From a virus: DNA of 64,000 nucleotides. Location: the IMG/VR virus record IMGVR_UViG_3300030202_003733, positions 109,201 through 173,200 of that record. The stretch is one strand, 5' to 3'. The notes under the pieces are model-generated. The model saw only the letters and a program-made list of their open reading frames with translations, made no database searches and had not been told where the DNA came from. This document shows, piece by piece, positions 26,301-61,936 of this stretch. Position 1 is the stretch's first letter. Each line of letters opens with the position of its first letter. The translations under genes were made by a program, and so were the position numbers.

Positions 26301-26970
26301 TTCTTAATTGTTCAGGGCCACTTCTTTCACCGCCCAGACCGACCGGGAAAATACCAACCGGATATAGCCGCCCGCCTCGCTGCTTACGCGTTCCAGCGCC
26401 AGCGACCATTATCACTCCATCTTCTAGGGGCCAGGACTTTTCTGTTCTGTCGAGATACCCACCCCAAGATCTTGGAGGATCAGCGGCATCAAAAGCTTGT
26501 GTTGCTCGCGGATCGATACCATAAAATGGGCCACCATCCTGATATGACTCTTCGCTTCCCATCCCCCACTCTAAAAATCCATAAGTAAAAGCATTTATGC
26601 GTGTGGCGATGCTCGGGTCGCGATCTGGATCTAGAAACCCGCAACCAAAAGAATTAGGGTCGCTCAAGACTGCGTGATCGTAGGGTGCAAAATCTGTGAA
26701 AACATCACACGGATATAATTCTTCTATCGGGTCGTCGAGTACATCGTCGCCACCACTTCCGCCACCTCCACCACCTCCACCGGAAGGAGGGTCAACGAGA
26801 AGTTCGGGGACACACTCTCCCAACACGCAGACATAACCATCAGCACAATCGCTACTATCACTGCAAGGTGAGCCGCCGCCTGCTCCATCTACACCACCGA
26901 GGCCACCGTCACCGGTGTCTTCGCCTTCCTCGGTCGCGTCTTCTGCTGGGCCTGAGTCTATACCATTCAT
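20362..26970 (-). CDS. Giant baseplate-module protein (2202 aa) with N-terminal Cys motif
   Basis: ATG 26970 is preceded by AAGGAG at 10 nt, and a stop lies just upstream in frame, so the start is firm. Residues about 34-56 carry a compact disulfide-type motif with four Cys (C-x5-C-x5-C-x5-C spacing, including GYVCVLGECV), followed by a Gly/Ser linker. Similar motifs occur in secreted bacterial proteins. The remainder is acidic, rich in Asp-Pro-Glu, contains many further Cys, and has long predicted helices (about 870-1250), including a hydrophobic stretch near residue 1080 that could resemble a membrane segment but sits inside a soluble-looking context. No catalytic motif was found. It lies 5 nt upstream of the gp25-like gene and downstream of the baseplate-type genes at 26985-28601, so a central baseplate or hub role is likely. 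The family is not recognised. Confidence 0.75.
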   Translation of the reverse strand: MNGIDSGPAEDATEEGEDTGDGGLGGVDGAGGGSPCSDSSDCADGYVCVLGECVPELLVDPPSGGGGGGGGSGGDDVLDDPIEELYPCDVFTDFAPYDHAVLSDPNSFGCGFLDPDRDPSIATRINAFTYGFLEWGMGSEESYQDGGPFYGIDPRATQAFDAADPPRSWGGYLDRTEKSWPLEDGVIMVAGAGTRKQRGGRLYPVGIFPVGLGGERSGPEQLRTDILIAISEQQGVVTMLLEGQSNYLLKVATGQLPGSEERTEYWQEAVEIAQDYLDDLERRVYEAFFDPTWSFTLRDNLYDVEEPVVAWYEARGNYITRATANDSLYWYGDEVLEGLEEPTEEDILGDTLVAAGINTADCDEEQLFTSTESTIDTCVEQESVFLPNWTTREVNDIFFDPRRCLYCAVVEAKGDGATTDCSEEYLNSFIGEGVGKIKKFYDKVDFVEFYDSELSATEIGTEASLQEGSTGLTRQGLVFVGSARVDDYYMPPQPLIATRILVTVDAEEFNRIPENPVMRAVQTNPEIDLDTGEKFVVFDMGQFTDMIVKVSESMLAHEKTYSAWAYEQGAYIPNFDLIKEVKRLKSFEKELRLFVKENGYPISIVDKLEIRFNPDLSLKFIKVREKGCLPEELTKGLPGLKIRPPITMQQTMAFVWQLPIMNRDVMARNPMPWLEFYTRHYYPALPEVVYGPDPTAPTEEGGDGIDSAEGSCQTSVDFVPNEKFMKNAMNSLRDAIAAEFNKNPCLLVDGKILEDAEKDKIVSRIVDMSLKEYLASDRFIEELPEMFVRGQLDDLRQLYTHLLDQMGWCGWVELIKSVVDCILNALGYEDAITIVLKSALRGMDEDAFIEWLSELPPEIQDLIIGAVKDFYPQAMPLLQAIIQKTVDDIPPPPPLYPTSYSSKEGKNIALGAPPSTAERVGTVDTGYPNPGDFGNLKEAVVNLLDTQADILIEPFLETLETFPGVGIAIAAIQKIDKFCPVPPLFSPPLKDFIKLPQLKTDICKLKIALTMPDFPKLKTADWSRLLWKNLMLILEELMIRLVIVILQTILRLIVEEICKDRSQDPADLRDILVSSLCEGGDISEEEANAAMTDIISTIGCIEATPDMVGRMIDNISAVITQCELLDLIQGKASPTALKIVRETISADPMTAPLAECFPDDESVLSFFAAMGAFMNLDVLCTVDAFELPIADSLCDDLGLLQTFSDTRAALLREKGVSEECIQDQLCSLRDRLGEELEALANFLQGQGDLSEFFPDILDDPEDPNQQGLLPYIDPIAADMASRIFTSLFGVMDFQFTQDLVGPDGFINMVLADSRGRGLTQHTNFERFLGPGLLNIYGSRGTRINPPRDEWKLIRNNERAFWTIPYFLNPYGIAGGPADDADDAPDIVGQPPAVGGFPDKVAGHLQDEMDPEWGQQCLNKSFNKADTFAMVMKYNDYRSEDEESSDLYDFTVKYDWWAGDDVLDNRCRIRITDDRVYGSELTYRSADFIDQPTSDLITSLYNVSNPSHVWGQYITELWQDASETAGVGFSEDIRPHFESSVFNTINDGFFSRIVEKVSTNRKAFTFGYKGAIDTETGMPKDDALPKIVYFHQDNDLGLTLDQAVNEYGGTTDNPPFYIQDPKYTGWLKLSQELVPEIHSCDDPTTTGSSLGNFIEIKNRCDELFKKVKDDDRFQLDSPKYKIIEEPFDRMLRGSQVAAIEGSINATIRVYLLEAMLKGLSTFSLFRPKFGDMYSDVFSSYVVEDMVESMIDIGRGKKYNVPFPRNRRYMLSFLEMAVQIYQKRIDIGEIQDETPLEKEARLFLFNKVRDEWEPPVSTRGSDPRSLIEAKKDNLYEFLDDDDVIANAKILLRRYVSDELERASEMFIEKTSPPLSNMVDVFFGNDNWIYESVPSGGPIHVSRDTNETNPYLREGDSFEDWPFVLEKYILVEDFAGSPDRDSKLKKVVNLDEFETYISGLSDDEASAIFQNLSMGLRISYIPTATDLAETGIGGVSVNEAYANENKAFSVTTRYLTPLVSTEKPIDMSLTFEEVIDEINSYQTNYLPDLICQIIEEPEYKMLFKYCFPLERILSVVTVFCLRAFLPSIGRGGPTRELVDAGELEYNGDYSYGDRYGDGWFKEGGTKIGFKKGFRNWERTNVFKESKYSSKQIFKTALNVGNFDFVDEDLDSPGEDFARNSRVKSNEGMKIKWWMWRSLRPPPCKE

Positions 26971-26984
26971 CCGTCATTAACTCC

Positions 26985-27974
26985 TTAATTTGACCTATTG
27001 TGGCGCGAGCCAATCCACCGGCCACCGCTTGGTTTCATATATTTATTAACCACAGAAAGCTGGTTTGCTTTAAAGACATGAAGCTGTGTCTTAACTAGAG
27101 CTAAATCGTTTATTAATGTATTAAAACTTTTTATAATTAAGTTTGGATCTGGGGCTGTCGGGGACCCGAATCCTGGGGCTATGTGAGTGTGGAATCCTAT
27201 GTAGCTAAAGAGGTCCATGCTGTAAGTAACAAAGTTATCAATGATGCCTGCTAGCTGACCTATAAGACCGTCAGCGGGATCAGCAACCTCCACAAGACAA
27301 TCTGCAAGTTCAAAGGCCTTCGTGATCGGCTGAAGCCTCATCTGTGTCACAGGGGCTCCATCCACTAAATAATTATCAACATTGTCATCATTACCCGCTA
27401 TAAGATCAATACCATAAATAGTACTTATATCACCGCCTTGAGAGTTAGAATCACCAACAGGGGAAGTAGTTAATTTTATACCCTCTCTGCCAACAATTCT
27501 AATCGCATCTGCCTTCATGCCTATGGCTGACCTAGCCTTAGAGAGGCCAACAGTGCCCCTTGGCAAACCCAGATAACCATCTATGTCTGCCTTTTGACTT
27601 ATATAAATTCGCGCTGCGTCAGATATAAAGTTAGGGTTTGCAAAAGTGTCTGTGTCTGCACCAGCTCCCATCCTTCCGACCACCATATCGATCATGCCCG
27701 CTTGGGTGTGTCCATCTCCGCCATAGCCACTTGCCCTACTGCCAAACCTATCCCTACCGAAAACAATCCATTGATTGTTTTCATGACTTATAACCTTTTC
27801 GCACTCTGCTCTGTTCAAACGCGGAATTGGCTCAGTGAGCTTTGTACAATAATAGCCCTGTTTACCAATTGAAGCTTCAACCTCTTTAGCAGCCTTGTTC
27901 CACGCTCTGCTTAGCTTTTTATTAAGTTTTTTGTGGTCTCTAGACTCATTATTTTTACCTATTCCTAATGGCAT
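26985..27974 (-). CDS. Conserved phage baseplate-module protein (329 aa)
   Basis: ATG 27974 has AAAGGATAAG upstream. The N-terminus is basic, and a Cys-containing segment around residues 42-60 is followed by GRDRFGSRASGYGGDGHTQAG. The most distinctive part is around residues 150-175, where ADAIRIVGREGIKLTT gives a beta-strand pattern typical of phage hub or spike OB/beta-helix regions. The C-terminal third is helical with HTHIAPGFG near residue 270. No enzymatic signature is visible. It precedes the 2202-aa gene by 14 nt and follows the 204-aa OB-like gene by 12 nt, which points to the baseplate hub or spike. This is position-based inference. Confidence 0.65.
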   Translation of the reverse strand: MPLGIGKNNESRDHKKLNKKLSRAWNKAAKEVEASIGKQGYYCTKLTEPIPRLNRAECEKVISHENNQWIVFGRDRFGSRASGYGGDGHTQAGMIDMVVGRMGAGADTDTFANPNFISDAARIYISQKADIDGYLGLPRGTVGLSKARSAIGMKADAIRIVGREGIKLTTSPVGDSNSQGGDISTIYGIDLIAGNDDNVDNYLVDGAPVTQMRLQPITKAFELADCLVEVADPADGLIGQLAGIIDNFVTYSMDLFSYIGFHTHIAPGFGSPTAPDPNLIIKSFNTLINDLALVKTQLHVFKANQLSVVNKYMKPSGGRWIGSRHNRSN

Positions 27975-40438: not shown

Positions 40439-41345
40439 TATCTTGGCCTCCCTGTATAGACGCCATTATCGCGCCAATAACATTGTCATCCAATTGTGTA
40501 TGATTAACAGCTAAATGATAATTTTCTTCCACATATGGAAGCATTTGTTTATATTTTTCAAAAGACAGGCTTTTTAAAATATCATAAAGCTCTGTGGGCG
40601 AATTGAATCTAAGGACACCCTTCTCATTAAAGTAATCACCTAAATTTTCACATCCCCAAAATATAGGGACTGTACCACATCTAAAAGCATCAATAAGGGT
40701 TTCAGTAAAGTAATTATTATTTTTTGCATTCATTACGGTTATACTAAAGCAGTAATCTTTTAAACACAAATATTTATCTTTTTTATCGAACTCTTTAAAT
40801 GCACTTCCCCAAAAATCCACCTCAACCTTATCTTTAATTAAATTTGTTATTATGTGCCTAAGCTGGTGGCCTGGGGCCCAGTTTTTATTTGAAGCTATGT
40901 GGGACAGTAATTTGTTTTTCTGATATAGTTTGGCCTTCTCATCGGATATCCATGTGCTACCAGTTGATATTTTTACATACTTTGGCCCTCTAGCTAGCAG
41001 CCCTTCATCATGAGTTACAATAAGATCAAAATCATCCTCAAGTGATAAAATAAATTTGTACGCAAACGGGTGTATTTGTTTGCATTCATGCAGAAAAGCA
41101 ACTTTGTAATCACTCTCCACTTGTTTTACTAGTGGGGACATAATGTCTTTATCAGTAAAAACAGTTATTCTTTGCTTCTCATCTGGGAGAACTGCTGGGG
41201 ATATGGCGCAGTCCTGCGCCCCTCCGTAGTATTTCCAATTTACACTTGTAGGTGCAATAGCAGCACCAGTGAGACTCCAGTTATCTCCTATTTTATTTAA
41301 CGGCGTCATTAGACTGTCATAAAGAGCAACTTCAACCTTCTCCAT
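40431..41345 (-). CDS. Glycosyltransferase, GT10/fucosyltransferase-like (304 aa)
   Basis: The C-terminal half has the alpha-1,3-fucosyltransferase-type donor-site segment: an N-N-N-Y-F-T-E-T-L-I-D-A-F stretch followed by CGTVPIFWGCENL (about residues 210-236), equivalent to the family motif YVTEKLxDAxxxGTVPIYWG. The N-terminal half is a divergent acceptor domain. GT10 enzymes transfer L-fucose or similar 6-deoxy sugars from GDP donors, and a related 6-deoxy or dideoxy donor would suit this cluster. GGAGG precedes ATG 41345, and the gene overlaps the HAD phosphatase by 14 nt. Confidence 0.75.
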   Translation of the reverse strand: MEKVEVALYDSLMTPLNKIGDNWSLTGAAIAPTSVNWKYYGGAQDCAISPAVLPDEKQRITVFTDKDIMSPLVKQVESDYKVAFLHECKQIHPFAYKFILSLEDDFDLIVTHDEGLLARGPKYVKISTGSTWISDEKAKLYQKNKLLSHIASNKNWAPGHQLRHIITNLIKDKVEVDFWGSAFKEFDKKDKYLCLKDYCFSITVMNAKNNNYFTETLIDAFRCGTVPIFWGCENLGDYFNEKGVLRFNSPTELYDILKSLSFEKYKQMLPYVEENYHLAVNHTQLDDNVIGAIMASIQGGQDNA

Positions 41346-41637
41346 TAAAGAAATCCTCCGTATTTATCGCCTTATCACAAATAAATAAATCATAATGTGG
41401 TTTACCAACCTTTACCTCTGTATGTTTAACTCCCCACTCCACCAATTGGCTCTTGGTTAGCGGTAGATAATCTACCATTGATACAGAACCTCTAGCAGTC
41501 CAGTAAGTAACTGTGTGGCCTTGATCATACAATTTATTCATTTTTTCGATGTTTTCTTTTATCGGAATTGCATCAGCGTAATTTCTTTGCCCTTCATATT
41601 TGCAAATGGTTTCATCTATGTCAACATAATATATCAT
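41332..41637 (-). CDS. Small HAD-superfamily phosphatase (101 aa)
   Basis: HAD motif I is D6-I-D8-E-T (YYVDIDETICKY), motif II is the Thr in TYWTARGS, and a C-terminal Asp-Lys region (PHYDLFICDKA) provides motif IV-type Asp. There is no cap domain. Such capless HADs in capsule and LPS clusters dephosphorylate sugar phosphates. AAGGGGG precedes ATG 41637, with a 1-nt overlap with the cupin gene. It could act with the kinase/cytidylyltransferase or nonulosonate steps. Substrate is unknown. Confidence 0.8.
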   Translation of the reverse strand: MIYYVDIDETICKYEGQRNYADAIPIKENIEKMNKLYDQGHTVTYWTARGSVSMVDYLPLTKSQLVEWGVKHTEVKVGKPHYDLFICDKAINTEDFFNGEG

Positions 41638-42002
41638 TAGTCCCCCTTTAGGATTCTGTAGCTGTCGCTGTCAAAGTGCTGGGTAGAGAATTCGAATAGC
41701 TCCGTGTCCTCTAGGGCCTCCATTTGATGACGCAGGCCTCTAAAAACGTGGAAGTTGTCGCCCTTGGTCAAAACTCTCTCTGCGGCCCTGCTTAAATCGT
41801 CTCCAGTCGAGTATCTCACTAACATTTTACCCGACTGAATATAGAATACTTCATCTTTTAATTTGTGATAGTGCCAAGAACACTTCTTACCTTTTACGAA
41901 ATAAAGAAGTTTACCACAATACTCATCACAATTAACAATCCACTTCTCAAAACCCCAGCCTTTTGGCACAAAATTCATGGGTAGCTGAATATCACTTACC
42001 AT
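41637..42002 (-). CDS. Cupin-domain protein, possible sugar isomerase (121 aa)
   Basis: Single cupin barrel. The metal motif CSWHYHKLKDEVFYIQSGKML (about residues 40-60) gives the two His, a Lys-spaced Glu and the following Gly. The second cupin motif with GLRHQMEALEDTELFEF supplies the last His. It resembles the cupin of mannose-6-phosphate isomerase-like or dTDP-sugar isomerase-like proteins. AUG 42002 has only a weak Shine-Dalgarno (GGGGGT) and overlaps the SDR by 7 nt. It may isomerise or bind an intermediate of the nonulosonate or deoxysugar branch; the exact role is open. Confidence 0.75.
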   Translation of the reverse strand: MVSDIQLPMNFVPKGWGFEKWIVNCDEYCGKLLYFVKGKKCSWHYHKLKDEVFYIQSGKMLVRYSTGDDLSRAAERVLTKGDNFHVFRGLRHQMEALEDTELFEFSTQHFDSDSYRILKGD

Positions 42003-46752: not shown

Positions 46753-47579
46753 TGATGATTCCTAAGTTTATCTCTGACCGGAACTTCCGACTCTTGCACA
46801 GTCTTTGTGGGGCTGCCAAGGGACAGTTCTACTGTCCTAATATCTTTAACCAGTCTCGTTAGATCATCTAATTCAATAGACGCAGGCTGGTCCGAGCCAT
46901 ACATGGTTTTATCAAGTGTAATGTGCCTCTCGATACAGGTAGCGCCCATGGCGGCTGCCGAGACGGATACAATACGGCCAGTCTCATGGCCACTATAACC
47001 AGCGGCACACTTAAATACATCCCTAAGCGTCCACATAGCCCTTAAGTTAGCGGCCTCATTCTTCATAGGATAAGTGCTATTACAATGCATTAATGTAAAT
47101 GGACAATCGTGATGATTAAATGTGTTTACAACACGCTCAATTTCTTCCATAGTGCTCATGCCTGTGGAAATAAATGTGTGCCTGCCTTCCCTAGCAATTT
47201 CCTCAACCAGTTCCTTATATGTTAGAAGCGCCGAAGCGATCTTGTTGTGTTTCAGATTGTACTGCTTTAAAAAGTCTTGACTTTTTAAATCCCAAGCAGA
47301 GGCAAACCAATCGATTCCCACCGCTTTACAATACCGATCAATTTCATCATATTCTTGCTTTCCAAATTCGAGCCCAAGTTTTTGCTCTCTATTGGTTGTC
47401 CCCCAGGGGCTTTCTCTCGGTCTGTCCAAATCAGCTTTCGTATAGACTTTTTCTACACACCTCTTTTGAAATTTAACAGCGTCACAGCCTGCTCTGACCG
47501 CACCATCAATCATCTTCTTAGCGATGTCTAAATCGCCATTATGGTTAATACCAATTTCTGCTATAATATAAACACTCAT
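46740..47579 (-). CDS. Nonulosonic acid synthase, NeuB-like, lacking C-terminal SAF domain (279 aa)
   Basis: TIM-barrel NeuB core: N-terminal IIAEIGINHNGDLDIAKKMI, CDAVKFQKRCVEKVYTK (PEP/metal contact), the S-T-G-M-S-T-M-E-E-I loop near residue 140 and AAGYSGHETGR (about 194-204). Family members are about 345 aa with a C-terminal antifreeze-like SAF domain that contributes an active-site Arg from the partner subunit. This one ends about 65 residues early, just after the barrel, so that domain is missing. It condenses PEP with a 6-carbon amino sugar to form sialic, legionaminic or pseudaminic-type acid. The substrate is not determinable. AGGAG precedes ATG 47579, and the promoter at 47595-47623 is upstream. 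Confidence 0.85.
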   Translation of the reverse strand: MSVYIIAEIGINHNGDLDIAKKMIDGAVRAGCDAVKFQKRCVEKVYTKADLDRPRESPWGTTNREQKLGLEFGKQEYDEIDRYCKAVGIDWFASAWDLKSQDFLKQYNLKHNKIASALLTYKELVEEIAREGRHTFISTGMSTMEEIERVVNTFNHHDCPFTLMHCNSTYPMKNEAANLRAMWTLRDVFKCAAGYSGHETGRIVSVSAAAMGATCIERHITLDKTMYGSDQPASIELDDLTRLVKDIRTVELSLGSPTKTVQESEVPVRDKLRNHQWPE

Positions 47580-47623: not shown

Positions 47624-48549
47624 GGCAATTCTCCTTTTACAAAAACATCGTGCCAAGAGCTTCTGTCTAAATTGATAATTTCAATATCAAGCTTCTCGGC
47701 ACTCTCCTTTATAATTTTCATATCGTCTAATATAAAATCCCTAAAAACGTGCTTCCAGTGGCCAACGTTTGGAAAATTTATTGGTAAATTAGCGTCTGTA
47801 TTTGCATAACCAACACTATAATCAAGGTCCATTCCGGTAATATATATTGGGTTACAACCCATATGTATTGCTAACATAATAGCAAACATACCCACTGTTT
47901 GACCTGGGCCTGCGTGTTTGTTGTGCCCTGATATCTCCTGTAGGTGTTCTTGAAGGGTTTTATTTATAAAATGATCACAACAATCACCGTGTGACCTCCA
48001 AGCGGGAGCTATGTGGCCATGCACTTGGGCAACCACGGGGTGTACTCCGTGTGTATTTGGTCGGCTCCACATTTGTGGATTGTTACCATAATCTCTATAG
48101 TCTAAATTTTTGTGGTTATCATAATGATGTTTAAAATTTTTAAGTATCTGTGAGCACTTGTGTTTCTTAAAATGTTTTGTATCGTAAGGCAAATAATCAC
48201 ATTTTAAATGTTTTTCTATAAAATCAAATTTCGTCAAGTCCGCTGTTGCGTTGTACAGCAGGGGAACATTGTATTTATTAAATACGTTCTTTGGATACCC
48301 ACGAGAGTTCCATATATGATTTTCTGTAATTGAATTTTTAATTGTAAATTCGCCGTTAGAAACAACCCAGTAATCAGGTTTTTCAGTAAAAAAACTGTAC
48401 CACTCGTTCACAGAAAATCTTAATAACTTTTCTTCTCTTTGTAGTTTTTCTATACGGTCCTTAGAAAAATTTAAACTAGGGCCATGACAAGCCACGACAC
48501 ATGGTTTGTCCTTATGAGAATTACGAATTGTATCAAGTTCTATTTTCAT
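47620..48549 (-). CDS. DUF115-family protein, possible nonulosonate glycosyltransferase (309 aa)
   Basis: Two features mark DUF115/Maf-like proteins: the N-terminal Rossmann segment DKPCVVACHGPSLNFSKDR (about residues 14-32) and the region IMLAIHMGCNPIYITGMDLDYS (about 226-247) near the C-terminal end of the domain. Maf proteins transfer pseudaminic or legionaminic acid to flagellin, and other DUF115 proteins sit in LPS clusters. Direct neighbourhood with the NeuB- and NeuA-like genes makes this a candidate nonulosonate transferase. No clear Shine-Dalgarno precedes ATG 48549, so translation may depend on the overlapping upstream gene (ATGA). Confidence 0.72.
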   Translation of the reverse strand: MKIELDTIRNSHKDKPCVVACHGPSLNFSKDRIEKLQREEKLLRFSVNEWYSFFTEKPDYWVVSNGEFTIKNSITENHIWNSRGYPKNVFNKYNVPLLYNATADLTKFDFIEKHLKCDYLPYDTKHFKKHKCSQILKNFKHHYDNHKNLDYRDYGNNPQMWSRPNTHGVHPVVAQVHGHIAPAWRSHGDCCDHFINKTLQEHLQEISGHNKHAGPGQTVGMFAIMLAIHMGCNPIYITGMDLDYSVGYANTDANLPINFPNVGHWKHVFRDFILDDMKIIKESAEKLDIEIINLDRSSWHDVFVKGELP

Positions 48550-49049
48550 ACTTTTAAAATTAAATCCACATACTTAGCTGAAATTTTTTCGCCGGGAACA
48601 GAGAAGCTTCGAACTAAACCAGAGTAGCCCACGTATCCTAATATGGCTTTAGCAGCGTCCTGGACAGATATGAGTTCCATAACTCCGCTAGGTTTGACCG
48701 AGCCTTCAGAGAGGCCTTTTATGACTGATTTGTGTGATATAAAAGTGGGAAGTCTTACGACTATGGACTTTAAAGAATTGGCCAGTAAATATGACTCTGC
48801 TGTGTGCTTATAATATGTATAATATGTTTCTTTTGTGGAACTAGTTGAAACAAATATAATTTTTTTATTTTTATGTTTCTCAACAAACTTCACAAATCTA
48901 TCGTACTCTTTTTTCTGTGAGCTTTCCGCTTTATTTGATACATTCCAAGTATGATAAATATAAACTTCGTCATCACAGGCAATAGAGTCTAAAATTAAAG
49001 CCAGAGAATTCCCTAGCTGACCCCTGCCCCCTACAAGCGTGACACTCAC
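48546..49049 (-). CDS. Short NAD-dependent epimerase/reductase-like protein (167 aa)
   Basis: Start is GTG 49049 with GGAAGAG upstream and a GTGA overlap with the GT2 gene. The N-terminus VTLVGGRGQLGNSLA is a Rossmann NAD(P) loop, IIFVSTSSTKE carries the Ser/Thr segment, and YTYYKHTAESY gives a Tyr-x3-Lys pair. At 167 aa it is about half the length of NDP-sugar epimerases, so the substrate domain is much reduced. It could be a dedicated reductase for a small intermediate or a degenerated epimerase. It is coupled on both sides. Confidence 0.7.
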   Translation of the reverse strand: MSVTLVGGRGQLGNSLALILDSIACDDEVYIYHTWNVSNKAESSQKKEYDRFVKFVEKHKNKKIIFVSTSSTKETYYTYYKHTAESYLLANSLKSIVVRLPTFISHKSVIKGLSEGSVKPSGVMELISVQDAAKAILGYVGYSGLVRSFSVPGEKISAKYVDLILKV

Positions 49050-49798
49050 AACTCTTCCAGCGGGCTACATCTTTTCATCCCCCTAATTCTTTGTTCCGTT
49101 GCGAGTTGTGTTGCGTGATCTACCTTATCAACATTTAATGGGTTGTCGCGATTATATACATAAAGAACTTTATTTATAAAATGACTTTTATGTCCCGCAA
49201 GTTCAAATAAGGGGTAAGTCCAAGCTAGGTCCCACGCGTACATAAAATGATGTTCTCTGTCGCCGGACTCTACAAAACACTCGTCACTAAGGCTATCCCA
49301 AAGTCCATATTTAAAAGTCTGTAAATGCGAAGTTGTCCATGGTGCTTCTCTAATACAGTTATTATCGATTACATAATCTGGAACTTTTTTAGAAAATTTG
49401 CCAACGATACCAGACGGGTATTCTACATAACTGCCGTAAGTCATCCAACAAGAGTGTTTGATATATTCTTCATTCAATATTTTAAGTGAATCTTTTGTGG
49501 CAAGCCAATCATCACCATGTAGCACAACGACAACATCCTCTTTACTGGGTGCAGTTGTTGAGAGTGCGCTGCGTATGTTCTCAAATGGGTATTTTTTTTC
49601 AGTGTTTTCTATTAAAAGAAATCTATCGTCGCCGTCAATTGTTTTTTTTATAATCTCCACCGATTCATCAGTAGATAAATCGTCAATAAGAATACACTGG
49701 AAATTTTTATAGCTCTGATGTTTAACACTCAATAACGTTTTTCTGATCCATTTATCGACATTATAGAAAGGTATGACCACTTTAAAATGATTAGACAC
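49046..49798 (-). CDS. Glycosyltransferase family 2 (250 aa)
   Basis: GT-A fold: N-terminal KVVIPFYNVDKWIRKTLLSV is the GT2 start, ILIDDLSTDESVEII binds the nucleotide, and VVVVLHGDDWLATKDSL contains the Asp-Asp metal-binding pair. GTG 49798 with GGAGG is the start, giving an 8-nt overlap with the upstream GT4-type gene. It is an inverting GT2, but donor and acceptor are not predictable. It carries a TATAAATA-like octamer at 49171-49178 that I do not regard as a promoter. Confidence 0.85.
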   Translation of the reverse strand: MSNHFKVVIPFYNVDKWIRKTLLSVKHQSYKNFQCILIDDLSTDESVEIIKKTIDGDDRFLLIENTEKKYPFENIRSALSTTAPSKEDVVVVLHGDDWLATKDSLKILNEEYIKHSCWMTYGSYVEYPSGIVGKFSKKVPDYVIDNNCIREAPWTTSHLQTFKYGLWDSLSDECFVESGDREHHFMYAWDLAWTYPLFELAGHKSHFINKVLYVYNRDNPLNVDKVDHATQLATEQRIRGMKRCSPLEEL

Positions 49799-50624
49799 CT
49801 AGTGCCTCCAACACCATAATTGGTATTTCGTCTCTTTTGTTTTCCATCAAATCTATCAAAGCCTCGCCCTTGTTGACAAACCAAGATTCGCCTGCGGCTC
49901 CTACTAAACTATTTGTTACTACTTTCATATTCATCATCCTTGCCTCCACAACTATCCTTGAGAGAGTCTCGGGCGTTTTAGGAAAGAAAACTAGTGTTTC
50001 ATTAGCACCAAGCTTTTCTAAAAATTGGTCATGTTCACAGGGCATTATTAATTCGTATTCTATTTTTTTTTCCGTACAATACTGCTTAGAGTGTTCTGTA
50101 CCTTTGTGCAATATATTAGAATACATAATGGAACTGCGACCAGATTTAGTGTTTTTAGACAAAAGACGTAATGTATCTAAAGTTTCTTTCGCCCACAAGT
50201 TGCCGCCAACACTAATAATATTGTTCATTTTTAAATTTTTCTTAACTATATTGGCATGAAAATCCGATTGGCAAAAAACAGCTTTTGCTGTTTTATAAAA
50301 CTCATAATTAATAATCGCTTTGTTCGGAGCCTTAAAATCTTTATAAGCAGCAGGGTTTCTATTGCGTAAATATTTGTGATCATGTTCATAAATAATATAT
50401 TTTTTTCTTTGAATCGCACTTTTGTTTTGTTCAGATAAATTTATAAAGTTAGAAACTATAATAGCATCACTGCTTAAAATATTGTATTCGCTAACCAAGT
50501 GGCTGTTCACACATAAAACTTCATGTCCTTTACTACGCAGTAAATCAATTAGAACTGAGTTGTTCAGTTCTCCGCCACCGTTAACTTGGTCTGCAAAGAA
50601 ATCTGCTATGAAATGAATTTTCAC
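49791..50624 (-). CDS. Glycosyltransferase, GT4-like (277 aa)
   Basis: GT-B-type protein. The N-terminal domain has the family opening IHFIADFFADQVNGGGELNNSVL, with a Gly-Gly loop for the acceptor side. In the C-terminal half ETLVFFPKTPETLSRIVVEARMMN is the E-x7-E-like donor segment. Length (277) is short for GT4 (usually 350-400). Start is GTG 50624, overlapping the upstream gene by GTGA. Donor sugar unknown. It is probably one of a series acting sequentially on the same glycan. Confidence 0.75.
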   Translation of the reverse strand: MKIHFIADFFADQVNGGGELNNSVLIDLLRSKGHEVLCVNSHLVSEYNILSSDAIIVSNFINLSEQNKSAIQRKKYIIYEHDHKYLRNRNPAAYKDFKAPNKAIINYEFYKTAKAVFCQSDFHANIVKKNLKMNNIISVGGNLWAKETLDTLRLLSKNTKSGRSSIMYSNILHKGTEHSKQYCTEKKIEYELIMPCEHDQFLEKLGANETLVFFPKTPETLSRIVVEARMMNMKVVTNSLVGAAGESWFVNKGEALIDLMENKRDEIPIMVLEALGV

Positions 50625-51886
50625 TCAAATACCTGCTCAGAGTTTTCTAGCTCGGAGAGCCAACTTTCCATTTCAATAAAATCAGGGCCACACATTGAGT
50701 TTGCAAATAATTCATATTGCTTCTCCGGAGCGAATTCGACACAAACGTGTTTATAGAGTTTTTTAGCCATAGACTTATATTTTTTATAGTTATTTCTAAC
50801 CTCACGCAGTCTCATTTTATAACTACCCCCGTCAGGATAGCACCACTGAGATCCTTCGACCAGAACATTCTCCCAAATCACCTCTTTTTGGATTGGGGCT
50901 ATATTATATTTAACCTTAGAAAACATGGCCTTTTTCTTCCTGCCCTTGTCTGGGGCGTATAGGAAATCCACTTGCCCACCCCAGTCTGTTGTTATAATCG
51001 GAAGTTCGTTGTAGGCAGCCTCAAAAATTGGAAGCCCAAAACCTTCGCCGTGTGTTAAAGAGATTAGTGCCTTTATTTTGGGGTGTCTATAAAGGCCAGT
51101 CATTTCTTCGTTGGTCATATCACCATGTAATAAATAAATCTTGCACTTTCTATCCCCATCTTTATACTCGTTTAGAATATTTGCAAGCCTACCTGTTGTG
51201 TAATTTTTATCCATGAGACAATTTTTCATAGAAAAAGTCTTTATTACAAGACCAACTTCTTGATCATAGTTTTCCTCAATGAACCACCTAATGGTATTCT
51301 CTAGATTTTTTCTCGGACCCCATTGAGCAACTACAAGATAATTAAAGTCGTACTCAAAATCAATATCAAGATCGGCGGGCTCATATGTCCGCGTTGGGTA
51401 GTTTACAACATCTATCGGTGTTTCCAACTTAAGTTCCACAGGCATGTTTGTGTTAGGGTTTGTACCTGTGTATGACGAATTTTCAAATCCCCACTTTGTA
51501 TGGTTTGATATTGCTATAATTCGGTCCATCATATTGCACTTTTCTAGCCATAAAGGCGAAACCCTTGTAGTTTCCACTCCTGCTGTATAGCCAATATTTA
51601 TCGGAGCCATTTGTTCCCATTCTTGTGGAATAGTTATCTGTAAGGAAATATCAAATTGACCGCCTTGTGATGCATAGATCCCTGTCGCCTTAATCCTCTC
51701 GTCTATCCACCTTCTTTCCTCAGTGTCATCACTAATCCAATTGCTACGACCCCACCCAACAGGGATTATATACACATCAAACCTGGAGTCTTCGAAGTGA
51801 CGAAGAGAACGTAGAGCAAATCTAGCTTGGACTCCATAACCGGTTTGTGAAAGGACCGGACCCCTGACTAATACCTTTTTTTTCAT
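50621..51886 (-). CDS. Glycosyltransferase, GT4-like (421 aa)
   Basis: The start is ATG 51886 with GGAG 5 nt upstream and an ATGA overlap; the longer frame starts at a TTG inside the previous gene. The N-terminus LSQTGYGVQARFALRSLR is the GT4 glycine-rich loop. Residues about 200-240 (LVVAQWGPRKNLENTIRWF) are the Rossmann start of the donor domain. LISLTHGEGFGLPIFEAAYNELPIITTDWGG (about 290-320) is the E-x7-E donor motif. Similar enzymes build LPS cores and capsules. Confidence 0.85.
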   Translation of the reverse strand: MKKKVLVRGPVLSQTGYGVQARFALRSLRHFEDSRFDVYIIPVGWGRSNWISDDTEERRWIDERIKATGIYASQGGQFDISLQITIPQEWEQMAPINIGYTAGVETTRVSPLWLEKCNMMDRIIAISNHTKWGFENSSYTGTNPNTNMPVELKLETPIDVVNYPTRTYEPADLDIDFEYDFNYLVVAQWGPRKNLENTIRWFIEENYDQEVGLVIKTFSMKNCLMDKNYTTGRLANILNEYKDGDRKCKIYLLHGDMTNEEMTGLYRHPKIKALISLTHGEGFGLPIFEAAYNELPIITTDWGGQVDFLYAPDKGRKKKAMFSKVKYNIAPIQKEVIWENVLVEGSQWCYPDGGSYKMRLREVRNNYKKYKSMAKKLYKHVCVEFAPEKQYELFANSMCGPDFIEMESWLSELENSEQVFE

Positions 51887-55180: not shown

Positions 55181-56536
55181 TCATAAAATTTTAGCTGCGA
55201 GACTCGCAACTTGTGATCTTTCACCCTTCTTAAGGGTGACATGGCCTGAAAGGCCATGGTTTTTCATTTTCTCAACAGCGTGTGTTAAGCCAGAAGACAT
55301 CTCATTAACATAAATATTATCTATCTGCTCAATATCTCCGGTGAGCACAATTTTTGTCCCTTCACCAACACGAGTAAGAATTGTTTTTACTTCGTGGGGA
55401 GTAAGATTTTGAGCCTCATCTACAACAATATATGCATTTGCTATTGATCTTCCTCTTATATACGTCAATGCTTCAATCTCAATTAACCCGCGTTCCATAT
55501 AATCATCTAGTGTAACTTGATCATCGCCGGTTAGAAATTTTAGGTTATCTTGCACCGGAGCTAGCCAAGGTGCCATTTTCTCTTGCATGGTGCCCGGCAA
55601 GAATCCTATATCCCTGCCCATTGGCATCACGGGTCTAGACACAACAAGACGTTTATAAGGGCTGCCAAACCCTTTATTGTTTTTAATTTTTTCCTTAATA
55701 TTCCTGTTTAGTAACACCTGCTCCAGGCCAGCAGCTATAGCAATTAAAGTTTTGCCCGAGCCTGCTTTTCCAATAAGAGACACAACCTGAACATCCGGGT
55801 CCATAAGGAGATCCAACGCAAACATCTGCTCCTTATTCCTTGCCTTAACACCCCATACACCATCTTTTTGTTCGTTTACTTTGGTTAAGCTAGAATTATA
55901 ACCTTCAAATCTTGACAGTGCTGTTTTCTTATCGTTGGAACTGGACACGAGCATAACAAATTGGTTCGGGCAGAGGCCTGGGTGGTCCTCCTTATCTAGG
56001 GTGACTGGCCCGTCATTATAAAATAGGTCTATCGTCTGATCATCGACCAGACAGGTAGCCAACCCAGAATATAAATCAGATTCCTTTTTAATCGCCTGGT
56101 TCTCGGTGTAGTCTTCACTTGAAACACCTATAGAATCACATATGACCCTCATATTAATATCGCGGCTGACTAAGATCGTTTTCCTATTACTGGAGGCTAG
56201 CTCCTCGCTCAGGGCTGTAGATATTATCATATGATCCGCTACACTCGGGTCTAGATCCCCAGGTAATTTGTTCGCAGAGTGCTTTGCTATACTTAAAACA
56301 CCCTTACCTTTGGCAATACGAACACCATTTTGTAAAGCCCCTTTTGAACGAAGATCATCTAGCTCCCGAATAATTTTTCTGGCATTTGCGCCGGCGCTAT
56401 CCTGTCTCTTCTTATGTTTGTCTATTTCTTCTAGAACTTTAAGTGGCAATATTATATCATTGTTGCCGTAATTAAAGATGCAATTTGCATCCGTTAAACA
56501 TACGCTTGTGTCTAGAATGTAGTTTTTCTTGGCCAT
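55181..56536 (-). CDS. PIN-PhoH ATPase, PhoH2-like (451 aa)
   Basis: Two-domain protein. An N-terminal PIN domain (about 5-145) has Asp at LDTSVCLTD and SRDINMR (D126), giving the RNase acidic site. The C-terminal PhoH ATPase has Walker A GKAGSGKT at 256-263 and Walker B YIVVDEAQN near residue 370. PhoH2 proteins unwind and cleave RNA; phage PhoH genes are common but their role is unsettled. AAGGAAT precedes ATG 56536. The terminator at 56552-56591 lies directly upstream, so transcription through it may be regulated. Confidence 0.88.
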   Translation of the reverse strand: MAKKNYILDTSVCLTDANCIFNYGNNDIILPLKVLEEIDKHKKRQDSAGANARKIIRELDDLRSKGALQNGVRIAKGKGVLSIAKHSANKLPGDLDPSVADHMIISTALSEELASSNRKTILVSRDINMRVICDSIGVSSEDYTENQAIKKESDLYSGLATCLVDDQTIDLFYNDGPVTLDKEDHPGLCPNQFVMLVSSSNDKKTALSRFEGYNSSLTKVNEQKDGVWGVKARNKEQMFALDLLMDPDVQVVSLIGKAGSGKTLIAIAAGLEQVLLNRNIKEKIKNNKGFGSPYKRLVVSRPVMPMGRDIGFLPGTMQEKMAPWLAPVQDNLKFLTGDDQVTLDDYMERGLIEIEALTYIRGRSIANAYIVVDEAQNLTPHEVKTILTRVGEGTKIVLTGDIEQIDNIYVNEMSSGLTHAVEKMKNHGLSGHVTLKKGERSQVASLAAKIL

Positions 56537-56913: not shown

Positions 56914-57282
56914 TTAAGAATCGTTATATTCTTTCAACAAAAGGTGTGTGTAGTGTTTTTGGTCGCGGGCAGTTTTTATTCGATGGCAGTTGGCACACCT
57001 GACCTCACATTTGGCCGCTTCTTCTAGAATACTATCCCAGCTATATTCCTTTCTGAGCAAGGAACTGACATTATATTTTTTATTATTTAAATGGTCAAAA
57101 TCAAGCACTCTCGGGTCTGATTCTCCACAATCAACACACGGGTGACTTTTATAAAATTCCATCATCTTTCTTTTTATTTGTTCACGCCTAGCTTTCCTCG
57201 CTGGCTCGTTATAACTGCTGGTTGACAAAGAATCCCCCTGGTTCTGGTCACCGTAACACATTGAGCAGAAAAAAACAACCAA
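56914..57282 (-). CDS. HNH endonuclease-like protein (122 aa)
   Basis: HNH domain: a zinc-ribbon pair CVDC at residues 49-52, DFDH at 61-64 giving the first HNH His, and CEVRCANCHR at 92-101 with the second Cys pair and final His. It has an extra N-terminal Cys pair (CSMC, 6-9). The start TTG 57282 follows the FNR stop directly without a good Shine-Dalgarno, so an internal ATG at residue 8 is possible. Small HNH proteins are often free-standing homing or DNA-packaging nucleases. It is the last gene before a 62-aa membrane protein. Confidence 0.8.
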   Translation of the reverse strand: MVVFFCSMCYGDQNQGDSLSTSSYNEPARKARREQIKRKMMEFYKSHPCVDCGESDPRVLDFDHLNNKKYNVSSLLRKEYSWDSILEEAAKCEVRCANCHRIKTARDQKHYTHLLLKEYNDS

Positions 57283-58068
57283 CTAACCAACAAACGCTCT
57301 TTCATAAGCATATTCTTTGAGTTGTCTTCCAGAACTGTGACTCATATTGTATTCGGCTAATATATCACCAATATCCTTAACCACGGGTAATGAACCACAT
57401 ATCATCACCCGGTCGGAATCAGGGTTTAAGAGTGGTATGTTTAAATCATTAAATAATTTTTTATTTTTAATCAATTCTGTTATTCGACCGTATTTTACTT
57501 TCTCGGATAAATCCTTTTCTTGTGTTGTAGTTTGATAGCACACCAGTTTAGTTAACGCATGTTCGCCACATAAAGGATCTCGATGTATTAACTTCATTAG
57601 ATCTGTTCCATAGGCTAAGTCCTCCAATTGTCGACATGTGTGTGTCAATACTATTTGGTCAAACCCTTCGTATGTGTCTGGGTCTCTCAAAATGCTAGCA
57701 AAAGGAGCTATTCCGGTGCCTGTAGAAAACAAGAACAAACGTTTTCCAGGAAGAATATCCCAAGGTGTGAGATTGCCCACTGCTTTAGCGCCCAACAATA
57801 TATTATCATTTACTTTTATATGCTGTAATTTTGACGTTAGGGGGCCGTCTGGTATTTTAATGGAGTAGAACTCCAACTCTTCGTCAAAAGGGCCGCTAGC
57901 TATGGAGTAGGCCCTCATAAGAGGTTCATTATTTACCTCAAGCCCAAGCATGATAAACTGACCTGGTTTGAATCGAAGTGTCTCGGGGCGTGTGATCTTA
58001 AATGAAAAAAGACTATCTGTGTAGTGTCTCACACCAGTTACTTTTTCTACACTCGATGGCTTTGCCAT
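57283..58068 (-). CDS. Ferredoxin-NADP reductase, FpR-type (261 aa)
   Basis: FAD-binding domain with the flavin contact R52-A-Y-S55 (MRAYSIASG), and an NADP domain with the GTGT-A-P-F loop STGTGIAPF at 115-123. The C-terminus YERAFVG matches the bacterial FpR/NFR-type tail. Length (261) is typical. CGGAG lies before ATG 58068, about 23 nt after the tmRNA end. It catalyses NADPH-ferredoxin/flavodoxin electron transfer. In a phage it could feed electrons to ribonucleotide reductase, Fe-S or radical SAM enzymes, or, more speculatively, to the RfbH-like dehydrase, which needs an external reductase. Confidence 0.85.
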   Translation of the reverse strand: MAKPSSVEKVTGVRHYTDSLFSFKITRPETLRFKPGQFIMLGLEVNNEPLMRAYSIASGPFDEELEFYSIKIPDGPLTSKLQHIKVNDNILLGAKAVGNLTPWDILPGKRLFLFSTGTGIAPFASILRDPDTYEGFDQIVLTHTCRQLEDLAYGTDLMKLIHRDPLCGEHALTKLVCYQTTTQEKDLSEKVKYGRITELIKNKKLFNDLNIPLLNPDSDRVMICGSLPVVKDIGDILAEYNMSHSSGRQLKEYAYERAFVG

Positions 58069-58090: not shown

Positions 58091-58441
58091 TGGAGACGGC
58101 GGGAGTTGAACCCGCGTCCGGAACAATTTTCAATTCAAGTCATTCACAGGCTTGTCTGATTAACCCAACCAGAGGGGCTGCTACAAAAAACCCGCTTCCT
58201 ATGTAGCCTCAGAAGTCCACCCACTGTAAGTGGGGTAACCATTGTGATTTTTTTATTTTCGCAGGAATCAACCTGTTATCTTAGGTTGGGTATCAAGGTC
58301 CTAAGAAACCCCGCGATTATGCCGCTAAGGCAAGTTCGAAGTGATTATTGTTATTGGCAATTATCAAATGGTTTGATTTTAAAGTCTCACGACTGCCTGC
58401 ACTATCCTCTTCTATTCCCCCGTCGAATCCTGAACGTCCCC
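58091..58441 (-). ncRNA. ssrA: Transfer-messenger RNA (tmRNA, one-piece)
   Basis: Minus-strand 351-nt RNA. The 5' end GGGGACG pairs with CGTCTCC at the 3' end to form the 7-bp acceptor stem with discriminator A. GGACGCGGGTTCAACTCCCG gives the T arm and GATTCGACGGG the 5' domain. The tag reading frame starts with resume codon GCC at 58358 and encodes ANNNNHFELALAA, ending at TAA 58317, so the ALAA degradation signal for ClpXP-type proteases is present. The CCA tail is not encoded and must be added by host enzyme. Its 5' end is 4 nt after the Flp gene stop, so it is probably cut from a longer transcript. tmRNA rescues stalled ribosomes. It is intact, and unusual on a phage. Confidence 0.95.
58317..58358 (-). 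other. tmRNA tag-peptide reading frame
   Basis: GCC at 58356-58358 is the resume codon, followed by AAT AAC AAT AAT CAC TTC GAA CTT GCC TTA GCG GCA and TAA at 58317-58319. The peptide is ANNNNHFELALAA. The run of four Asn and the HFE segment differ from the common ANDENYALAA form, but the terminal ALAA is retained. Confidence 0.9.
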
Positions 58442-58445
58442 GTAA

Positions 58446-58601
58446 CTAAGCCATGCTCAATGTTGTAACAACCACACCAAAAGCATCAGCAATTTTAAAA
58501 TATACACCACCCCACGCAGTCATAATAAGACCAAACATAACACTGGAAATCATGCCGTACTCGATGGCTGTAGCACCTTCTTCATTATTGATAAAATTCA
58601 T
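58446..58601 (-). CDS. Flp/Fap-type pilin (51 aa)
   Basis: AAGGGAGGG lies 8 nt before ATG 58601, so the precursor begins MNFINNEEGATAIEYG; an upstream ATG in the same frame is not preceded by such a site. The pattern G-A-T-A-I-E-Y-G followed by a hydrophobic segment (SSVMFGLIMTAWGGVYF) is the Flp pilin signature, with prepilin peptidase cutting after Gly. The mature protein would be about 42 aa and lies in the membrane until assembled. Flp pili mediate tight adherence in proteobacteria and actinobacteria. A phage copy is unusual, and it sits in the same transcript as tmRNA. Confidence 0.85.
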   Translation of the reverse strand: MNFINNEEGATAIEYGMISSVMFGLIMTAWGGVYFKIADAFGVVVTTLSMA

Positions 58602-58659: not shown

Positions 58660-58866
58660 TTATTTATTGAAGTATTTTCTTATGTTTTTAAACCAAAATA
58701 AATCAAATATAAAATATAAAATAGTTGATATAATATTAAGAATAATAACCAATTCTATTGATTTTAGATATTGACCAATATACCAATATGTTATAAAAAA
58801 ACTAATTGGAATAGCTATAGTAAATCTCCAAATTAGTGATTTTATTAAAGCTTCTTTTCTTGTCAT
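58660..58866 (-). CDS. DUF2061 membrane protein (68 aa)
   Basis: Two membrane segments (about residues 12-29 and 39-57) with the family pattern: R-x-x-L-I-K-S-L-I-W-R-F-T-I at the start and FWFKNIRKYFNK at the end. DUF2061 proteins are small inner-membrane proteins of unknown function, often encoded near sulphate or nutrient genes in bacteria. GGGGGGAGG abuts ATG 58864-58866 directly, closer than a normal Shine-Dalgarno, and the promoter at 58882-58910 lies just upstream. It begins the Flp/tmRNA/FNR unit. Confidence 0.75.
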   Translation of the reverse strand: MTRKEALIKSLIWRFTIAIPISFFITYWYIGQYLKSIELVIILNIISTILYFIFDLFWFKNIRKYFNK

Positions 58867-58881: not shown

Positions 58882-58910
58882 AAAATAGCTCTATATGTCA
58901 AGTCTGTCAA
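58882..58910 (-). promoter_or_regulatory. Candidate sigma70-type promoter for DUF2061-Flp-tmRNA-FNR unit
   Basis: Minus-strand TTGACA (58910-58905), 17-nt spacer, TATTTT (58887-58882). The -35 is consensus and the -10 moderate. TGA of the -35 overlaps the stop codon of the upstream HTH gene (58907-58909). Transcription would start about 9 nt before ATG 58866, so the message has an extremely short leader. Predicted by sequence only. Confidence 0.45.
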
Positions 58911-59257
58911 GGCTGTTTTTTTGTAAAAAATGATTCAATGTCATATTTTTTCATCAATTTTCCGAAATCAACAGGCTTAAGTCCCAAAAATCTCATAGCT
59001 TCACCCTTTGTTTTAGTGGCAGACACAGCGTATTTTAGCACTGACTCTTTTATGATATGGTTTAAGCTGTGCCAAATGGGCAAACCATACAACCTGTTAC
59101 CAACAGATCGTGATGATATCTCTAATTTTAAAGCTATTATCTCTTCCAACGATAGGTTACTCAGCATCATTTCTAATCTATCGTCAGATTTGTTCTCTTT
59201 TCTGAGGGTTTTAGAAACATTATAATGTTTGGTGGTTGACCTTCTGTTATTATTCAC
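58907..59257 (-). CDS. Fis-type HTH DNA-binding protein (116 aa)
   Basis: GTG 59257 is coupled (GTGA) to the upstream gene. The C-terminal part has the Fis/HTH_8 pattern: a helix (IKESVLKYAVSATKTKGEAMRFLGL) with Lys-Gly-Glu-Ala turn, then KPVDFGKLMKKYDI as the recognition helix. The N-terminus is basic. It probably binds phage DNA as a regulator or nucleoid-type protein. It overlaps the 519-aa gene by 4 nt and precedes the promoter for the Flp/tmRNA unit. Confidence 0.7.
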   Translation of the reverse strand: MNNNRRSTTKHYNVSKTLRKENKSDDRLEMMLSNLSLEEIIALKLEISSRSVGNRLYGLPIWHSLNHIIKESVLKYAVSATKTKGEAMRFLGLKPVDFGKLMKKYDIESFFTKKQP

Positions 59258-60822: not shown

Positions 60823-61626
60823 CTATATTTCTGGGAGTTCCTCGACTCCCGGCACATTGTCCAACTCCGCTTTTTCGCCAGGTGTGGAATATTCGGCAGG
60901 AGTCTCTGGTTCTTCCTCGGGGGCCGGTGATAGCTCTTCTTCAAAACGATCAAAATATAACTTAAAGTTTAGTAAAAGAAAATCTTTAAATACTTGTCTC
61001 TCTGATTGATTATCCATGGCTGCAACTTTACTGTCTGCATCAAGTTTAGAGTATTCATTTTCAATTTGATTTTTAATTTGTTGAAAAGTTGTATAAGCAG
61101 CATTACGACCGGTTTTATCTAATTCACTATCATCCAATCCAAGAGCAAATTCTTCCTCTGGTGGTAGCTCATCGTCTTCAGCAGGTTCGTCATCGTCGTA
61201 TATATCAATAAATCCTGGGGTGTCCTCGTCCCCAATATTTAAATCGATATCTTCACTTAAACCTTTTTTATCCGAAAGGACAGAATCAGGATCTGCGTCG
61301 AGGGTTCTTATTAAATTTTCTATTGCATTTAATATATGCTTTCTAAAAGACACTCTTTGGTCTTGTGATGTCGTTAATTCTTTATAATCCTCTTCCACAC
61401 TAGGAACAATTTTTTTTAATAGGTCTTTAAGAAAATTTACAGCCGTTATATCATAAGGTGCGGTTGGGCTACCGCCAATCGCTATAGCTTCATTGATGCG
61501 TCCCCTGATATATCTTCGCAGGATGTTTTCGTTAATTTTTCGCTCACGAATAGATTTTAAGATGCTGTGCTGGACAGCTTTTCTAAATCTTATTTCTTCT
61601 AATAATTCAAACCTATTTATCGGCAT
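60823..61626 (-). CDS. Acidic helical phage protein (267 aa), possible scaffold/core
   Basis: The start is ATG 61626 with GAGGAAA upstream; the longer frame overlaps the coiled-coil gene. The N-terminus (RFELLEEIRFRKAVQHSILKS) is helical and basic. The centre is very acidic (DDDEPAEDDELPPEEEF), followed by a helical segment (YTTFQQIKNQIENEY) and a Pro/Glu-rich tail. Such composition is seen in prohead core or scaffolding proteins, but no motif shows this. Function not assigned. Confidence 0.6.
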   Translation of the reverse strand: MPINRFELLEEIRFRKAVQHSILKSIRERKINENILRRYIRGRINEAIAIGGSPTAPYDITAVNFLKDLLKKIVPSVEEDYKELTTSQDQRVSFRKHILNAIENLIRTLDADPDSVLSDKKGLSEDIDLNIGDEDTPGFIDIYDDDEPAEDDELPPEEEFALGLDDSELDKTGRNAAYTTFQQIKNQIENEYSKLDADSKVAAMDNQSERQVFKDFLLLNFKLYFDRFEEELSPAPEEEPETPAEYSTPGEKAELDNVPGVEELPEI

Positions 61627-61936
61627 TTTTATTTTTCCTCTTTTTAGCTGGTCGTGCCGGTGATATTGCCACGGCCCCACCTGCCATGGTGGACATCTCT
61701 TCAAGAACGTTTAGCTTTTCCTCTAAAACAGTCACTCTTTCTTGGAGCTTTCTATGTTTTTTCCTAATTTCTCTCAAGTGTGACTTAGCAACCTCGACCA
61801 TGTTTTTGTCTCTCTGAGACCCAGGCCGGAGTTTACTCAGAGCCTCTCCCAAGGATTGAATATACGCCATTGTGGAGGGTGTTTTTTTCTCCTCCCCCAA
61901 AAGAAACTGCCTAGTCATTTTGTTTAAATCAATCAT
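61613..61936 (-). CDS. Coiled-coil phage protein (107 aa)
   Basis: The central helix (VEVAKSHLREIRKKHRKLQERVTVLEEKLNVLEEM) gives heptad repeats of a coiled coil, followed by a basic tail (PARPAKKRKNKNADK). ATG 61936 lies 6 nt after the upstream stop and has only a weak site in GGGTAA. No family is recognised; oligomeric scaffold or linker roles are possible. Confidence 0.65.
   Translation of the reverse strand: MIDLNKMTRQFLLGEEKKTPSTMAYIQSLGEALSKLRPGSQRDKNMVEVAKSHLREIRKKHRKLQERVTVLEEKLNVLEEMSTMAGGAVAISPARPAKKRKNKNADK

Follow-up and report, generated by a model that had tools for sequence, protein, structure and literature searches.

The 64-kb window analysed here (bases 109201-173200 of the 183,023-bp IMG/VR virus record G000) carries a complete one-piece tmRNA gene, which is best explained as a member of a tmRNA lineage that resides in T4-like phages and not as a recent host capture. 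ARAGORN, applied to the 64-kb window, found one tmRNA on the minus strand at 58091-58441, with the tag ANNNNHFELALAA. Infernal with Rfam 15 matched RF00023 over the full model (1-374) with 104.1 bits and an E-value of 1.3e-39, the sole above-threshold match across the window. A sequence-only reading had described a complete phage-encoded tmRNA and had proposed this covariance comparison as a check; both programs bear the description out, and the score lies far above the gathering threshold of 47 bits. The parts of the gene are as follows.

58091..58441, minus strand: complete one-piece tmRNA gene of 351 nt, 5' end at 58441 (ARAGORN, RF00023, covariation with 13 relatives)
58435..58441, minus strand: 5' strand of the acceptor stem, GGGGACG, pairing with 58092-58098 (sequence)
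58092..58098, minus strand: 3' strand of the acceptor stem, CGUCUCC, with the discriminator A at 58091 (sequence)
58099..58115, minus strand: T arm, GCGGGUUCAACUCCCGC (RF00023 match, 14-member alignment)
58317..58358, minus strand: tag reading frame, ANNNNHFELALAA followed by TAA (ARAGORN; same peptide in the divergent phage G002)

All seven acceptor-stem pairs are formed, including G3-U70, and a UUCGAC D-loop region is readable; the matching acceptor arms, T arm, tag frame and stop named in the earlier reading are all present. Its remark that CCA is not encoded also stands, as the discriminator A is followed on its 3' side by UUU. The tmRNAs of G002 and of the viral contig L419 likewise do not encode CCA, and the same is seen in some bacteria. 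An encoded CCA is common in bacterial tmRNA and is not required. RNAalifold predicted 55 pairs from 14 aligned phage tmRNAs, 27 of which show at least one pairing-preserving two-sided change. G3-U70 is kept in 14 of the 14 while compensatory changes occur at adjacent acceptor pairs, which indicates that the alanine identity element is preserved. Every required sequence feature examined identifies the RNA as a tmRNA. A terminator scan found none.

The molecule shares with the bacterial one-piece tmRNA (ssrA, RF00023) the G3-U70 acceptor stem, the T arm, the D-loop region, a tag frame that starts with Ala and ends with LAA, and a presumed pseudoknot-type folding that fits the full-length model. 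It differs in belonging to a viral lineage with tags of mostly 12-15 residues bearing an [FYI][ED] pair and in the lack of a phage SmpB. Unlike many bacterial tmRNAs, those of the window's branch do not encode CCA.

The genome around the gene is that of a phage. The record encodes a T4-type terminase, closest among cultured phages to that of Flavobacterium phage immuto (44.5%), a tail sheath, the prohead protease S77, five tRNAs and, at record positions 48175-51600, a DNA polymerase III alpha subunit of the bacterial, C-family type that includes a PHP domain, whereas the T4 polymerase belongs to the B family. These genes place the tmRNA in a large T4-like phage. A second IMG/VR contig (G001) is 99.97% identical over 10.8 kb around the tmRNA, spanning both borders. 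The tmRNA of the divergent phage G002 is 73.6% identical, has the identical 13-residue tag and lies just downstream of a Flp pilin gene (9-nt gap). An assembly chimera, or host DNA inside a viral contig, is excluded as far as sequence allows by the identity over both borders and by a gene order that recurs in divergent phages, the pilin-tmRNA order in G002 and the locus in many more contigs; we regard its probability as negligible. DNA searches of the phage collection with the window region and with the tmRNA of a viral relative returned no phage relative, except for a 37-base SsrA match.

Several other parts of the record deserve mention in their own right. A run of 10 N at record positions 47191-47200 is an assembly gap. 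At 22414-25851 an ArdC-like anti-restriction protein with a metallopeptidase domain adjoins a DUF2201/VWA protein and an AAA_5 ATPase. The N-terminal leader MKLLxENWRxFxNE recurs in eight ORFs (208, 2114, 2428, 2875, 6094, 6833, 35095 on the minus strand, and 178946), and similar leaders occur in the related contigs L418 and L420. The leader looks like a capsid-targeting sequence of the T4 type, and the proteins that bear it may be packed into the head. An extended series of nucleotide-sugar-, aminotransferase- and glycosyltransferase-like genes, with sialic-acid-synthase-like and cytidylyltransferase-like genes among them, occupies window positions 30394-50624, as read by eye from the translations.

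The neighbours of the tmRNA, from upstream to downstream, are listed below.

60823..61704, minus strand: conserved upstream neighbour (locus comparison)
58907..59257, minus strand: 116-aa protein, HTH-like at its C-terminal end; no other upstream neighbour is as constant (31 contigs)
58660..58866, minus strand: 68-aa membrane-protein-like ORF, whose L419 counterpart is also just upstream of the tmRNA
58446..58601, minus strand: gene for a Flp/Fap pilin, separated from the tmRNA by 4 nt on its upstream side (PF04964, 32.4 bits; cut-off 32.2)
57283..58068, minus strand: ferredoxin-NADP-reductase-like gene, a variable downstream neighbour (PF00970, PF00175)
56914..57282, minus strand: HNH-like small protein, named by sequence reading alone, whose L419 counterpart is also downstream of the tmRNA
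55181..56536, minus strand: PIN-PhoH protein, the conserved downstream landmark (PF02562, PF13638)

In viral contigs the locus runs on one strand in a recurrent order: a protein like that of 60823-61704, the 116-aa protein, variable small genes, the tmRNA, variable genes and PIN-PhoH. The 116-aa protein, for which family searches gave no known family, is found in 31 contigs at most 2 kb upstream of the tmRNA. PhoH follows downstream in 15, and some of the contigs counted are near-copies. Among the viral loci searched, a pilin upstream of the tmRNA occurs only in this phage and G002, and the ferredoxin-NADP reductase is confined to this phage and the near-identical contig. Pilin and reductase vary between loci; the tmRNA is the fixed element. 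The earlier reading was right about the phage gene order and the 4-nt spacing, but the pilin is a variable neighbour and the conserved unit is the tmRNA locus. In L419, the frame of the upstream membrane-protein-like gene (1309-1533) enters the tmRNA (1501-1851) by about 30 nt on the same strand.

The pilin is a puzzle of its own. Both this phage and G002 have genes for a Flp pilin (PF04964) and for a TadE-like protein (PF07811); Flp adjoins the tmRNA, and the TadE-like gene adjoins tRNAs (Flp and TadE-like genes: window 58446-58601, G000 26782-27225, L227 438-854 and 1783-1941). Nothing in 50,697 phage records matched the pilin, and a Tad pilus subunit made by a phage calls for an explanation. 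In both phages a late-promoter-like motif, AATAAATA, precedes the pilin gene; its enrichment in the window is weak (14 against 8.3 expected), and no claim is made for it as a promoter.

The tag itself provides evidence of selection. Between the window and G002, the 42 positions of the tag DNA show 7 differences, every one of them synonymous. When seven changes were drawn at random 200,000 times, the peptide was never preserved (P<5e-6). Synonymous-only differences show that the tag peptide is under selection. The pattern ANNN..LAA, which fixes the ends of the tag and leaves the [FYI][ED] pair free, found 98 stretches in 2.9 million viral contigs and 113 in 84,980 prokaryote species genomes. 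Tags of viral one-piece tmRNAs from many viral contigs were among the matches (for example ANNNNNFESVRLAA, ANNNNHFESVRLAA and ANNNANFELALAA). The bacterial matches bear other tags, with two exceptions that both lie in phage-like DNA.

The earlier reading had called the tag unusual, and the comparison agrees: the [FYI][ED] pair is present in 51 of 52 viral tags and in 3 of the 103 bacterial tags sampled, related sequences in these counts being non-independent, so that a Fisher P value overstates the contrast. Four of the viral tmRNAs, reached via terminase relatives and not via the tag pattern, have the tags ANNNNHFEQRLAA, ANDNVAFDYALAA, ANNNNYELALAA and ANDDVEIFEDFALAA, each with the pair. Every one of the 52 viral tags ends in LAA, an ending that the pattern imposed on all members except the four found through terminase relatives. 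Most tags of the viral lineage are 12-15 residues long. Virus tags can be distinguished by eye from most bacterial tags. A full-text search for FESVRLAA among open-licence papers found no paper.

A tree built with bacterial tmRNAs of Gammaproteobacteria and Bacteroidota, added irrespective of their tags, united 49 of 50 viral one-piece tmRNAs and no cellular one in a single clade (support 99/97); this viral count includes two phage-like finds in bacterial assemblies, nearly all viral members were selected by the tag pattern, the alignment was not structure-aware and the bootstrap is rough. The window tmRNA falls inside the clade, which has no close bacterial kin in the sample and includes a further member from the uncultured phage LR756508.1. 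The two finds in bacterial assemblies were considered as bacterial clade members and rejected, since both were traced to phage-like DNA. One (L043; CP070664.1, G011 1266379-1266755) is the second tmRNA of a WOR-3 assembly, adjoins an N-gap and has beside it a gene nearly identical to one in the viral contig L177. The other (L085; DQKQ01000192.1) sits on a 4.7-kb contig with phage-like neighbours in a Flavobacteriales/Bacteroidota bin. Both are phage tmRNAs of this lineage, probably mis-scaffolded or mis-binned. Contigs selected by terminase, which are fragments, contain a full tmRNA in 4 of 22 cases and in 4 of the 8 longer than 65 kb; the gene is thus not universal.

These data bear on whether the gene might be functionless cargo, a host tmRNA recently acquired by recombination and now drifting. 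Mobile elements with ssrA as their integration site do carry some tmRNAs along (PMC9004378), and the adjoining pilin and reductase look host-derived. Synonymous-only tag changes, compensatory pairs, a conserved locus and the absence, in the sample, of bacterial tmRNAs closely related to the viral clade speak against it, and we judge such an origin highly improbable.

Trans-translation is the process in which a tmRNA charged with alanine binds SmpB, rescues stalled ribosomes and appends a ClpXP degron. SmpB is expected in the same genome in bacteria and not in phages. No SmpB was found in the record or in 46 tmRNA-bearing viral records, many of them fragments, which implies that the host must supply it. 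As suggested at the outset, the phage tmRNA would plausibly support ribosome rescue. The RNA is a genuine tmRNA that the phage owns and selection maintains; it probably serves a ribosome rescue that works with host SmpB and has ClpXP dispose of the tagged fragments. The tmRNA would be transcribed together with the upstream phage genes, host RNase P would trim its 5' end and a host enzyme would add CCA. Alanyl-tRNA synthetase would then charge it via G3-U70, and the charged molecule would bind host SmpB and enter ribosomes stalled on truncated mRNA, presumably during infection. ANNNNHFELALAA would be added to the stalled products, the LAA end may pass the tagged fragments to ClpXP for degradation, and the freed ribosomes could resume phage protein synthesis. 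Trans-translation can decide phage growth, as seen from lambda imm P22: on E. coli that lacks ssrA or smpB its plating drops about 10,000-fold, mainly because ribosome recycling is lost (PMC2862035).

One survey counted tmRNAs in 402 of 18,146 phage genomes (PMC9004378). Complete genes are carried by mycobacteriophages Bxz1, Catera and Wildcat and by Bacillus phage G (PMC4131195), and in this respect the window tmRNA is like them. The marine methylophage Melnitz also has a tmRNA in a T4-like phage, with a small gene beside it that is a regulator there and HTH-like here; however, the Melnitz tmRNA is two-piece, permuted and of alphaproteobacterial type, under a glutamine riboswitch (PMC9004378), whereas that of the window is in one piece and belongs to a distinct viral lineage.

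Mycobacteriophage DS6A likewise has an RNA related to tmRNA (PMC4131195, PMC11915505). It consists of the tRNA-like domain (TLD) only, and such a molecule inhibits tmRNA; the window RNA has a complete, conserved tag frame. The window RNA was considered as a DS6A-type TLD-only inhibitor and rejected, the tag domain being complete by ARAGORN and RF00023. A broader proposal would have the phage RNA titrate host SmpB and so block host trans-translation, as proposed for DS6A. This would suit an RNA that must use the host's SmpB, none having been found in the phage, and a DS6A-like RNA has been shown to inhibit tmRNA (PMC4131195; PMC11915505). An inhibitor has no need of a conserved peptide, and here a complete tag frame under selection is combined with an LAA end and an intact structure, which makes a decoy very improbable indeed. 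As a separate observation, LR756508.1 (484 kb) contains at 414804-414915 (L234 1501-1612) an RNA of 112 nt that aligns to the two ends of the tmRNA model with 58.2 bits and has no tag domain. It resembles the DS6A TLD-only RNA; LR756508.1 also has a full-length tmRNA match.

The degradation step raises the question of ClpP, which the phage encodes at record positions 41180-41791. Inspection by eye finds Ser and His in place and Asn at the expected catalytic Asp. ClpP was first taken as a strong candidate for a specific tmRNA partner, being present in 9 of 11 tmRNA-bearing contigs longer than 100 kb. The terminase-selected control weakened this case: ClpP is present in 5 of 5 such contigs longer than 100 kb, two of them without a detected tmRNA. 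It is thus a general gene of the phage group and weak evidence for a joint system.

The earlier reading's further idea, that the tag steers degradation, stays conjectural: a C-terminal LAA is the ordinary ClpX degron. One may nevertheless ask whether the [FYI][ED] class shifts adaptor or protease handling of stalled products to the benefit of the phage. The near-confinement of the class to viral tags, the four pattern-free finds and the phage ClpP would fit such reprogramming. The LAA signal is ordinary, ClpP is present in relatives without a detected tmRNA too, this ClpP has Asn at the expected catalytic Asp, and the shared segment may be plain inheritance; on balance we consider the idea unlikely. 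Also unlikely is the fuller proposal that T4-like environmental phages kept a one-locus tmRNA lineage and evolved a virus-specific tag, A-N-[ND]-[ND]-..-[FYI]-[ED]-..-LAA, that alters the recognition of stalled products, for example by escape from a host adaptor or by feeding phage ClpP. Ribosome rescue with host SmpB and ordinary disposal by ClpXP remains the preferred reading.

Phage tmRNAs themselves are known; the viral branch, its tag class and its fixed genomic position look undescribed so far. The notable point is the whole viral tmRNA lineage with a common tag class, rather than a single gene. The tag motif can serve as a marker of phage tmRNAs mis-binned in bacterial genomes, as in the two assemblies found here. 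In general, phage tmRNAs move from scattered curiosities to an apparently old, syntenic and structurally conserved part of one phage group, which raises a testable question: do phages require a ribosome rescue, or a degradation tag, of their own?
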